A stretch of DNA of 64,000 bases from Salvelinus alpinus (Eukaryota > Chordata > Actinopteri > Salmoniformes > Salmonidae): positions 93,204,190 through 93,268,189 of the forward strand of contig NC_092091.1 of assembly GCF_045679555.1 (NCBI RefSeq), given 5' to 3'. The notes under the pieces are model-generated. The model was not told the DNA's origin and did not search any database. It worked only from the letters and a program-made list of their open reading frames with translations. Made by a program: the position numbers and the translations under genes. Positions 31,101 to 37,100 of this stretch are shown here, one piece after another. Numbering within the stretch: the first letter of the stretch is position 1; each line of letters begins with the position of its first letter.

Positions 31101-34100
31101 TGGCTGGGGTGTCTGGCTGTCTGACTGGGGTGTCTGGCTGACTGGCTGGGTGTCTCTGTCTGGGCTGTCAGTCAGTCAGGCTGTAAGCAGTGGCCATCTG
31201 TTAATACTCTGTTAGAGCATCTGTTAATACTCTGTTAGAGCTTGCTGCAGTTTCACCTTTTCTCTGTATCATTCTCTCTTCCCCCTCCGGCCCTCTACAC
31301 CCTCCTGCCCTCTACACCCTCCTGCCCTCTTCCCCCTCCTGCCCTCTACACCCTCCTGCCCTCTACACCCTCCTGTCCTCTACACCCTCCTGCCCTCTTC
31401 CCCCTCCTGCCCTCTTCCCCCTCCTGTCCTCTTCCCCCTCCTGCCCTCTACACCCTCCTGCCCTCTACACCCTCCTGCCCTCTTCCCCCTCCTGCCCTCT
31501 ACACCCTCCTGCCCTCTACACCCTCCTGTCCTCTACACCCTCCTGCCCTCTTCCCCCTCCTGCCCTCTACACCCTCCTGCCCTCTACACCCTCCTGCCCT
31601 CTTCCCCCTCCTGCCCTCTTCCCCCTCCTGCCCTCTACACCCTCCTGCCCTCTACACCCTCCTGCCCTCTACACCCTCCTGCCCTCTTCCCCCTCCTGCC
31701 CTCTACACCCTCCTGCCCTCTACACCCTCCTGCCCTCTTCCCCCTCCTGCCCTCTACACCCTCCTGCCCTCTTCCCCCTCCTGCCCTCTACACCCTCCTG
31801 TCCTCTACACCCTCCTGCCCTCTTCCCCCTCCTGTCCTCTTCCCCCTCCTGCCCTCTACACCCTCCTGCCCTCTACACCCTCCTGCCCTCTTCCCCCTCC
31901 TGCCCTCTACACCCTCCTGCCCTCTACACCCTCCTGCCCTCTTCCCCCTCCTGCCCTCTTCCCCCTCCTGCCCTCTTCCCCCTCCTGCCCTCTACACCCT
32001 CCTCCCTCCTCCACCAGACGTCGTCAGGTCATGTCCAGTTGGACAACTGTAATTTCGAGGGAGCTCAGCTGCAGATCCGAGGCCCAGGAACCTGCCACGC
32101 CCGCTTCTGCTCATTCTCACAGGGAAGCTCCACCCACTTCCTGGGCGTGACCCTCAGCCTGTTGGATAGCTGTGATTTCTCAGGAAGTGATTCGGCGTCC
32201 GTGACGGTTGAGGGCGCTCCAGTGACGGAGCGGAACTGGGCCTGTAAACACCTGGCCGCTCTGGCTCGAATCACCACATCCTGGACCTCGCCTGGGAGTG
32301 GTAGCCCAGCTGGAGACACCTTGGGCGGGCATTCAGGAGCCACACAGCCCCCTGGGGCTACCATCACCCTGGAGGACTGGAGCAAAGGAGAAACGGGGAG
32401 GAGAGGAGGAGGGGAGGAAGGAGTGTGTCAGGATACGGTGATTGAGGACGGCTGGAGCGACAGCCCTCCTAGTGAGGAGGAGGAGGAGGAGGAGGAAAAA
32501 GGAGAGGAAGGTTCAGGACAAGGCAACAACAGTCTAAACTACAGACTGGCCCACAGTCACCACGGCCTCTCTCATCTCCTCGGACCCAACCAGGACGACT
32601 CCCCCTCGCTGACCCCTGAAGTCCGAACCCTGACCGAGGAGCTCCAACGTGACCCCGGAGCCCAGGCGCTGGTCGAGACAGTGCAGGGGTGCGTGCTGAG
32701 GCGCTGCCTGTTTCGGGACGGCAAGGGCGGTGTGCACGTGTGTAACCACGGAAACGCCAGGTTGGAAGGAAACGTGTTCCGGGGGCTGACCTATGCCGTG
32801 CGCTGCATCCAGAACGCCACGGTAACCAGATAGGGCTGCCGATCTGATATGATTGGTTGGTTTGTTGATGTATATATCCTCCCTTAACTGAATGTGTTTT
32901 AGATAGTAATGTACACTACCGGTCATTCGAGGGTTTTACTTTATTTTTCCTATTTTCTACATTGTAGAATAATAGTGAAGACATCAAAACTATGAAATAA
33001 CACATATGGAATCATGTAGTAACCAAAGAAGTGTTAAACAAATCAAAATATATTTTCTATTTGAGATTCTTCAAATAGCCACCCTTTGCCTTGATGACAG
33101 CTTTGGTGTAGATCAAATATGATTGTATCTCATTGGTGTGTGTATTTTGCATGTGTGTGTGAGTGTGTTCCAGATTGTGATGCTCCGTAACGAGGTGTGT
33201 GAGTGTCGTGCGTCGGGCGTGTTCCTGCGTCTGTCGGCTCAGGGTCTGATCGCTGACAACAACATCCACTCCAACGGGGAGGCGGGGCTTGACATCCGCA
33301 AGGGGGCGGACCCCATCATCCTGGTAGTTCTATTCATTCTATTTCACATCTGTTCGTCTCTGATGTCATTACATCTATCCTGTTCGTCTCTGATGTCATC
33401 ATGTCTGTCCTGTTCGTCTTACTAGTGCACTGTGGTATTTTCCTCTCTACACAGCAACCTGTCAAATGGGTGTCAAATCATATGTCTTTCATCTGGTAGA
33501 AGTTACAGGACATGGTGATCTAAAATAACAACTGATCAAACTGTCTCTCTCTGTCTCTCTCTCTTTCTCTGTCTCTCTCTGTGTCTCTCTCTGTCTCACT
33601 CACTCAGTGTAACAGAATACACAGCGGTTTGCGTTCCGGCATCGTGGTCCTTGGCAACGGGAGGGGTTCCATCCGTAGCAACCAGATCTATAACAACAAG
33701 GAAGCAGGAGTCTACATTCTGTTCAACGGGAACCCTGTAGTCAGGTATGAGGGGGTGGGTCTACATTATGTTCACCAGGAACCCTGTGGTCAGGTAGGAG
33801 AGGGAAGTCTACAATCTGTTATACAGGAACCGTGTAGTCAGGTAGGAGAGGGTAGTCTACATTCTGTTATACAGGAACCCTGTAGTCAGGTAGGAGAGGT
33901 CTACATTCTGTTCAACAGGAACCCTGTAGTCAGGTAGGAGAGGGGAGTCTACATTCTGTTCAACGGGAACCCTGTAGTCAGGTAGTAGAGGGTAGTCTAC
34001 ATTCTGTTCAACAGGAACCCTGTAGTCAGGTAGCAGGGGGGGGGGGGGTCTACATTCTGTTCAACAGGAACCCTGTAGTCAGGTAGGAGAGGGTAGTCTA

Positions 34101-37100
34101 CATTCTGTTCAACAGGAACCCTGTAGTCAGATAGGAGAGGGTAGTCTACATTCTGTTCAACAGGAACCCTGTAGTCAGGTAGGAGAGGGGGGTCTACATT
34201 CTGTTATACAGGAACCCTGTAGTCAGGTAGGAGAGGGGAGTCTACATTCTGTTCAACAGGAACCCTGTAGTCAGGTAGGAGAGGGGAGTCTACATTCTGT
34301 TCAACAGGAACCCTGTAGTCAGGTAGGAGAGGGGGGTCTACATTCTGTTCAACAGGAACCCTGTAGTCAGGTAGGAGAGGGTAGTCTACATTCTGTTCAA
34401 CAGGAACCCTGTAGTCAGGTAGGAGGGGGGGGGGGGTCTACATTCTGTTCAACAGGAACCCTGTAGTCAGATAGGAGAGGGTAGTCTACATTCTGTTCAA
34501 CAGGAACCCTGTAGTCAGGTAGGAGAGGGGAGTCTACATTCTGTTCAACAGGAACCCTGTAGTCAGGTAGGAGAGGGGAGTCTACATTCTGTTCAACAGG
34601 AACCCTGTAGTCAGGTAGGAGAGGGGGGGTCTACATTCTGTTCAACAGGAACCCTGTAGTCAGGTAGGAGGGTAGTCTACATTCTGTTCAACAGGAACCC
34701 TGTAGTCAGGTAGGAGAGGTCTACATTCTGTTCAACAGGAACCCTGTAGTCAGATAGGAGAGGGGAGTCTACATTCTGTTCAACAGGAACCCTGTAGTCA
34801 GGTAGGAGAGCATAGTCTACATTCTGTTCAACAGGAACCCTGTAGTCAGGTAGGAGAGGGGAGTCTACATTCTGTTATACAGGAACCCTGTAGTCAGGTA
34901 GGAGAGGGGGGGTCTACATTCTGCTCAACAGGAACCCTGTAGTCAGGTAGGAGAGGGTAGTCTACATTCTGTTATACAGGAACCCTGTAGTCAGGTAGGA
35001 GAGGGGGGGTCTACATTCTGCTCCACAGGAACCCTGTAGTCAGGTAGGAGAGGGTAGTCTACATTCTGTTCAACAGGAACCCTGTAGTCAGGTAGGAGAG
35101 GGGGGGTCTACATTCTGTTCAACAGGAACCCTGTAGTCAGGTAGGAGAGGGGGGTCTACATTCTGTTATACAGGAACCCTGTAGTCAGGTAGGAGAGGTC
35201 TACATTCTGTTCAACAGGAACCCTGTAGTCAGGTAGAAGGGTAGTCTACATTCTGTTATACAGGAACCCTGTAGTCAGGTAGGAGAGGTCTACATTCTGT
35301 TCAACAGGAACCCTGTAGTCAGGTAGGAGGGTAGTCTACATTCTGTTCAACAGGAACCCTGTAGTCAGGTAGGAGAGGGTGGTCTACATTCTGTTCAACA
35401 GGAACCCTGTAGTCAGGTAGGAGAGGGGAGTCTACATTCTGTTATACAGGAACCCTGTAGTCAGGTAGGAGAGGGGGTCTACATTCTGTTATACAGGAAC
35501 CCTGTAGTCAGGTAGGAGAGGGGGGTCTACATTCTGTTATACAGGAACCCTGTAGTCGGGTAGGAGAGGGGGGTCTACATTCTGTTCAACAGGAACCCTG
35601 TCGTCAGGTAGGAGAGGGTAGTCTACATTCTGTTCAACAGGAACCCTGTAGTCAGGTAGGAGAGGGGGGTCTACATTCTGTTATACAGGAACCCTGTAGT
35701 CAGGTAGGAGAGGGGAGTCTACATTCTGTTCAACGGGAACCCTGTAGTCAGGTAGGAGAGGGTGGTCTACATTCTGTTCAACAGGAACCCTGTAGTCAGG
35801 TAGGAGAGGGTGGTCTACATTCTGTTCAACAGGAACCCTGTAGTCAGGTAGGAGAGGGGAGTCTACATTCTGTTCAACAGGAACCCTGTAGTCAGGTAGG
35901 AGAGGGGGGTCTACATTCTGTTATACAGGAACCCTGTAGTCAGGTAGGAGAGGGGAGTCTACATTCTGTTCAACGGGAACCCTGTAGTCAGGTAGGACTA
36001 TATATATATATATATCTAGATATTATACACTATATATAGATATTATACACTATGTCTGGAGACATTCATCACTATATATCTAGATATTATACACTATATA
36101 TAGATATTATACACTATATATCTAGATATTATACACTATATATAGATATTATACACTATATATAGATATTATACACTATATATAGATATTATACACTATA
36201 TCTAGATATTATACACTATATCTAGATATTATACACTATATATCTAGATATTATACACTATATATATCTAGATATTATACACTATATATAGATATTATAC
36301 ACTATATCTAGATATTATACACTATATCTAGATATTATACACTATATCTAGATATTATACACTATATATCTAGATATTATACACTATATATATCTAGATA
36401 TTATACACTATATATAGATATTATACACTATATATAGATATTATACACTATATATAGATATTATACACTATATATAGATATTATACACTATATATAGATA
36501 TTATACACTATGTATCAAGATGTTATACACTATATATCTAGATATTATACACTATATCTAGATATTATACACTATGTATCAAGATGTTATACACTATATA
36601 TCTAGATATTATACACTATACATCTAGATATTATACACTATATATATATATATTATACACTATATATCTAGATATTATACACTATATCTAGATATTATAC
36701 ACTATATATATATATATTATACACTATATCTAGATATTATACACTATATATAGATATTATACACTATATATAGATATTATACACTATATATAGATATTAT
36801 ACACTATATATCTAGATATTATACACTATATATATCTAGATATTATACACTATATTTAGATATTATACACTATATATAGATATTATACACTATATATAGA
36901 TATTATACACTATATATATAGATATTATACACTATATCTAGATATTATACACTATATATATAGATATTATACACTATATATAGATATTATACACTATATA
37001 TAGATATTATACACTATATATAGATATTATACACTATATATCTAGATATTATACACTATATATAGATATTATACACTATATATAGATATTATACACTATA

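Follow-up and report, generated by a model that had tools for sequence, protein, structure and literature searches.

A tandem array built from the end of FBXO10 coding exon 6 and its splice donor in Salvelinus alpinus

In a stretch of 64,000 nucleotides (nt) from Salvelinus alpinus (NCBI RefSeq assembly GCF_045679555.1, contig NC_092091.1, positions 93,204,190 to 93,268,189 of the forward strand; here called the window, numbered from its first letter), the end of coding exon 6 of the F-box gene FBXO10 and its splice donor have been copied in tandem into an array of 48 units, the first of which is the authentic exon end. We consider it likely that this array is an effectively neutral donor-spanning minisatellite of which the first copy is used, with a minor leak or a length-dependent loss of splicing possible. 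The array is probably spliced out and of little effect on the protein. Two further FBXO10 donors, and perhaps a third, lie in arrays of a similar kind.

Structure of the exon 6 donor array

The exon, its donor, and the array are placed as follows.

33608..33744, + strand, FBXO10 coding exon 6 (tblastn, junctions, and joined reading frame); the array derives from its final 35 bases
33745..33750, + strand, authentic exon 6 donor GTATGA; in-frame joining to 38626 gives the conserved NPVV-SGNHI
33710..35999, + strand, donor-spanning minisatellite of 48 units, counting the authentic exon end as unit 1 (tandem repeat detection, unit list, junction BLAST, per-position variation)

Tandem Repeats Finder (TRF) reported the array at 33707-35997 with a period of 48, 47.9 copies, 90% matches, and a score of 3714, beginning 38 bases upstream of the first intron base. 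Splitting at the unit start gave 48 units over 33710-35999, of which 32 are 48 bp long and 16 are 43 to 53 bp. Unit 1 comprises the last 35 coding bases and the donor (CCTGTAGTCAG|GTATGAG, with the last exon base at 33744) and is followed by 47 extra copies. In junction BLAST, these 47 copies cross the exon 6 donor with at least 5 nt on both sides, and each unit carries 35 exonic bases. A first-pass annotation of the window, made from the letters alone, had proposed that the exon end and its donor were amplified about 47 times, and the unit count bears this out.

A GT donor, as GTC(A/G)GGT, is present in 44 of the 47 extra units, and three units without GT read GATAGG. An acceptor-like AG|GAACC is likewise present in 44 of 47, and intact 15-nt AG..GT pseudo-exons occur in 40 of 47. 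Within 33707-35999, GTCAGGT is found 44 times, GTCAGGTAGGA 40 times, CATTCTGTTCAACAG 29 times, CATTCTGTTATACAG 11 times, and CATTCTGTTCAACGG 4 times. The earlier statement that nearly every unit carries both a donor and an acceptor-like site therefore holds for the donor, whereas the exact acceptor string that it named is found in only 29 of the 48 units (40 of 48 when the TTATACAG form is included).

The exon and the unit consensus differ at 2 of 42 positions. One change, G to A (CGG to CAG), gave rise to the acceptor-like AG; the other, T to G, lies at donor position +4. The repeat donor GTAGGA is thus one base away from the authentic GTATGA, as had been noted, but the acceptor AG was created by the G-to-A change and did not come from the exon itself. 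Because 28 of the 42 core positions are invariant across units, no special selection need be invoked to explain why the donor is kept. We considered selection for keeping the copied donors and rejected it, as per-position variation reflects general homogeneity and the donor is not specially conserved.

In the same intron, an AT-rich 20-bp array (TATATATAGATATTATACAC, ~79 copies) at 36011-37667 almost adjoins the 3' end of the exon 6 array.

Gene model and protein evidence across the junction

The FBXO10 coding region on the + strand of the window is apparently complete, with 12 coding exons that give an open reading frame (ORF) of 980 amino acids (aa) when joined. Exons were placed by tblastn with the human FBXO10 protein as the query, and the junctions were then read off the sequence. 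The product has F-box and beta-helix domains, with Beta_helix/NosD matches, and is 95% identical over its full length to FBXO10 of Oncorhynchus nerka (P0001). Coding exon 6 was called exon 7 in the first-pass annotation; the two numberings would agree if a non-coding exon sits upstream. The next exon 3' of the array is placed by the same evidence.

38626..38696, + strand, FBXO10 coding exon 7, 71 nt (tblastn, junctions, ORF)

In the FBXO10 proteins listed (120 of the 299 that passed), the sequence runs seamlessly over the junction, with NPVV leading directly to SGNHI or to a variant of equal length; a pattern match made 103 of these calls, and the other 17 were read by eye. Fish and tetrapod FBXO10 are nearly identical in protein sequence at this junction, so the array must derive from the exon. 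The ORF is complete with the donor after 33744, and the listed orthologues are seamless, which is consistent with normal use of the first donor. Protein searches with the array as the query were also negative: a 192-aa reading frame of the array returned 5111 candidates, none at an E value of 0.01 or better, and a 63-aa in-frame extension of the exon returned 13 candidates, none at 0.1 or better.

Elsewhere in the gene, intron 1 (28144-28227) is 84 nt long, a multiple of three without an in-frame stop. Its retention would insert 28 residues after the F-box, and the sockeye protein is without them.

Splice potential of the array copies

Donors and acceptors were scored with a simple matrix of approximate frequencies, together with the energy of U1 pairing. 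Background percentiles of these scores were discarded, as the background took in the array's own sites. The first-pass annotation had viewed the copies as potential donors and had proposed that every unit be scored. With this matrix, the copied donor CAGGTAGGA, present in 40 of the 44 GT-bearing copies, scores 4.45 compared with 4.03 for the authentic CAGGTATGA, and its U1 pairing is estimated at -10.7 kcal/mol compared with -7.2 kcal/mol. These 40 are thus at least as strong as the authentic donor, and the remaining 4 score 0.38 to 2.13. The 44 copied acceptors fall within the range of the 11 real acceptors of the gene, and 40 of them (3.92 or 4.41) exceed 4 of those 11. Judged from these donor and acceptor scores, the copies are plausible splice donors, and competition with the authentic donor is plausible.

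The predicted consequences of such competition are mostly unfavorable to the reading frame. Read-through past the end of exon 6 reaches a stop codon at 33935-33937, and in silico, splicing at 43 of the 44 alternative donors breaks the frame or runs into a stop. The remaining one is listed here.

33934..33935, + strand, GT of the fourth extra donor, the sole frame-keeping, stop-free one among the 44 alternative donors

Splicing after 33933 would add 189 nt, or 63 aa, in frame. The insertion point of any repeat peptide is after residue 575, inside the Beta_helix/NosD matches. The 15-nt pseudo-exons proposed earlier do exist as 40 intact in-frame copies, each of which would add RNPVV (RNRVV in one unit). 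Neighboring pseudo-exons, however, are only about 33 nt apart, which is too short for an intervening intron, and an exon of 15 nt would itself be unusually small.

Donor-spanning arrays elsewhere in FBXO10

We compared 80 bases around each of the 11 donors and 11 acceptors of FBXO10, and of this gene only, with the window by BLAST. Spanning copies were recovered for the donors of exon 6 (47 copies), exon 8 (2 copies), and exon 9 (35 copies), and none were recovered in the window for the other 8 of the 11 donors or for any of the 11 acceptors. Non-spanning matches from adjoining simple repeats, such as 123 at the exon 7 donor and 101 at the exon 10 acceptor, were left out. Besides the exon 6 array, three features belong here.

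39265..39577, + strand, second donor-spanning duplication, at exon 8; authentic copy plus 2 more, unit of 108 bp (TRF, BLAST, alignment)
39921..41141, + strand, third donor-spanning minisatellite, at exon 9; unit of 34 bp, ~37 copies (TRF, 37.4 copies)
28493..29443, + strand, array that begins at the donor of exon 2; unit of 52 bp (TRF at 28516-29443, local alignment, core count)

The exon 8 bounds were set by hand from the alignment (TRF gives 39365-39565). Its copies carry the last 62 exonic bases and the donor, with 98.75% and 87.2% identity over the matched stretch. The exon 9 unit holds the last 13 bases of the exon and the donor in 35 to 37 extra copies; among the 37 copies after the authentic one, the donor position reads GT in 20, GA in 16, and GC in 1. 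Both alternative donors of exon 8 and all 20 GT-keeping donors of exon 9 lose the full frame. The exon 2 case is weaker because only 3 exonic bases are shared and no match counted as spanning in the junction BLAST; its 18 exact cores read AAGGGGACTTA in place of AAG|GTGACTTA, with the donor GT gone.

The unit lengths of 48, 108, and 34 bp differ and therefore point to separate events. Of nine non-microsatellite arrays counted in FBXO10, three extend across a donor, by 13 to 62 bases. Under uniform placement of nine arrays, the probability that at least three cross a donor by 5 to 65 bases is 0.005, a post hoc value, since the gene was chosen for one such array and the exon 8 bounds were set by hand. 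The imbalance between donors and acceptors, 3 to 0 with 11 of each, comes from too few junctions to establish a preference for one side.

Two side observations concern these arrays and their neighbors. The exon 9 repeats also carry TAG|AGCC(G/A)CAATGGAG|GT, which could form a 13-nt pseudo-exon, though its pyrimidine tract is poor. A pyrimidine-rich 17-bp array (CCCTCCTGCCCTCTACA, ~43 copies) at 31283-32008 stops 9 bases short of the intron end that precedes exon 4, which gives the impression of an amplified polypyrimidine tract; it was not counted as an acceptor case, as no copy spans the exon 4 acceptor in the junction BLAST.

Surroundings in the window

The window (1-64000) is rich in minisatellites. 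Outside FBXO10, the longest ORFs look by eye like retrotransposon remains (45 of the 80 ORFs of at least 60 aa were viewed). At 53020-56950, ~208-bp repeats are followed by a 988-codon open frame that by eye resembles the ORF of a long interspersed nuclear element (LINE)-type retrotransposon, and frames at 19548-20928 resemble, likewise by eye, a broken retrotransposon reverse transcriptase. An assembly gap of 100 N (49041-49140) lies directly at the end of a 65-bp array at 46580-49040.

Comparable systems

The exon 6 array fits a known class that includes the amphioxus mirages and the donor-anchored variable-number tandem repeat (VNTR) of human ABCA7, and it stands out by its copy number and because the gene has at least three such cases. 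Mirages, named in amphioxus, are tandem repeats over exon-intron boundaries, many of them with AG/GT signals. Reverse transcription-PCR (RT-PCR) suggests that they are spliced normally, their clusters are unstable in length, and both boundaries can be affected (PMC3087553). Loci include Adh3 and globins, with retinol dehydrogenase and presenilin cited as similar (PMC3087553, PMC3902484), and PGBD5 and troponin C (PMC3902484). The FBXO10 array resembles mirages in its minisatellite-like boundary copies, many of which keep splice signals. It differs in that it lies in a vertebrate gene and has 47 extra copies, compared with 6 and 3 units in two BflGb6 haplotypes, and in that the amphioxus cases cover both boundaries and include RT-PCR, whereas FBXO10 has three clear cases at donors only, drawn from DNA and protein records. 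Among the open-licence papers found with the terms used, there was no vertebrate report under the term mirage and none on this locus. Passages on sea bream growth hormone introns mention minisatellites without a boundary-spanning array (PMC3045353).

The intron 18 VNTR of human ABCA7 has 25-bp units, and the array includes the exon 18 donor. One VNTR unit is retained with a frameshift in what is read as a 2% isoform, which is unchanged by VNTR length, whereas exon 19 skipping rises with VNTR length (PMC5954066). As in FBXO10, the authentic donor stands at the start of the array and a donor-like GT recurs in the units. In contrast, ABCA7 units begin exactly at the GT, while FBXO10 units hold 35 exonic bases and mostly an acceptor-like site. 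The ABCA7 work includes measurements of splicing and expression, while the FBXO10 array is known from sequence. The decoy exons of OGT, SF3B1, and ARGLU1 (PMC12017769) are, like the FBXO10 pairs, intronic acceptor-donor pairs, but FBXO10 has 40 copies of 15 nt, recognized by sequence only, and the OGT decoy is 143 to 153 nt long.

Mirages have been proposed as a source of new introns (PMC3087553, PMC3902484), and in intron gain by tandem arrays or internal duplications, exon edge duplications likewise carry or activate splice signals (PMC2812944, PMC3087553). Unlike those cases, FBXO10 has no sign of a new intron, and its repeats lie inside an existing one.

Proposed origin and alternative explanations

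We propose that the array arose by tandem duplication of a 48-bp stretch that reaches from 35 coding bases before the end of exon 6 into the start of the intron. The duplicated unit would then have been expanded and homogenized by slippage or unequal exchange, as the near identity of the units suggests. The first copy would have remained on the exon with the normal donor, consistent with an unbroken ORF and with protein conservation across the junction, and the remaining copies would be intronic and normally removed by splicing. Because the copied donors are strong on paper, the donor of the second unit, after 33793, may serve a small share of transcripts, or, by analogy with ABCA7, splicing may grow less efficient as the array lengthens, perhaps affecting the next exon. 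Products of such a leak would mostly carry a premature stop or a frameshift, as predicted for 43 of the 44 donors, and would presumably be degraded. Like events would have occurred separately at the donors of exons 8 and 9, and perhaps exon 2.

Several points weigh against this largely neutral interpretation. The 40 copied donors slightly outscore the authentic one, so leakage could exceed what we assume. The matrix itself uses approximate frequencies. P0001, with 36 members, is the sole listed row named as salmonid, and the database merges isoforms of more than 90% identity, so variants could hide within it. Many FBXO10 orthologue records are probably computed gene models. In ABCA7, the unit-retention isoform is unchanged by VNTR length, so that only exon skipping provides a length-dependent precedent.

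The array might instead be a working splicing modulator, in which decoy donors and the 40 acceptor-donor pairs occupy U1 and U2AF; removal of intron 6 would be slowed or blocked, and array length would tune FBXO10 output, as may be compared with the ABCA7 VNTR. The 44 extra donors (40 with a score slightly higher than that of the authentic donor), the 44 acceptors within the real range, and the 40 intact pairs are consistent with such a role, as are the correlation of longer ABCA7 VNTRs with reduced expression and increased skipping of exon 19 (PMC5954066) and the promotion of intron retention by OGT decoy exons (PMC12017769). Retention of the donor, however, is explained by homogenization, with 28 of 42 positions invariant and GT gone in 3 of the 48 units. 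GT is absent from 17 of the 37 exon 9 copies and from the 18 exact exon 2 cores, so donors are not generally kept, and the 15-nt pseudo-exons are far shorter than the OGT decoy. We regard a modulating role as unlikely.

Production of protein isoforms, suggested in the first-pass annotation as tandemly added repeat peptide, appears most improbable. Both routes, 63 extra residues via the donor after 33933 or RNPVV microexons within the beta-helix domain, are open in frame on paper, but 43 of the 44 donors fail, the 120 listed orthologues are without an insert, both peptide searches were empty, and the insertion point falls inside the Beta_helix/NosD matches. We likewise find it very unlikely that an ordinary minisatellite overlaps the donor by chance in a repeat-rich region or that the copy number is an assembly artifact. 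Repeats are indeed dense, with 29635 of the 64000 bases left after masking of the larger arrays and listed arrays occupying 9362 of the 13647 intronic bases of FBXO10. Three donor crossings among nine arrays nonetheless argue against chance (on the post hoc uniform-placement estimate), and units that vary in sequence and length are unlike a mechanical assembly duplication. The preferred interpretation thus remains a donor-spanning minisatellite with little effect, used at its first copy.

Implications

Given several donor cases in a single gene, a count across the genome would be worthwhile. One FBXO10 exon is followed by 44 extra donors, 40 of which share the same nine bases, and two more amplified donors lie nearby. 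The gene offers a natural setting in which to ask how one of many equal donors is selected by the spliceosome and whether gene output depends on array length. The ABCA7 case links a boundary-spanning minisatellite to splicing and disease risk. We can put forward only as a doubtful generalization that splice donor junctions are recurrent minisatellite seeds in this fish lineage, with three and possibly four donors affected independently and no acceptor. If true, recurrent seeding at donors would suggest that the duplication process is linked to transcription or splicing, and such arrays would constitute a standing supply of ready donors, acceptors, and in-frame microexons for new introns and exons.

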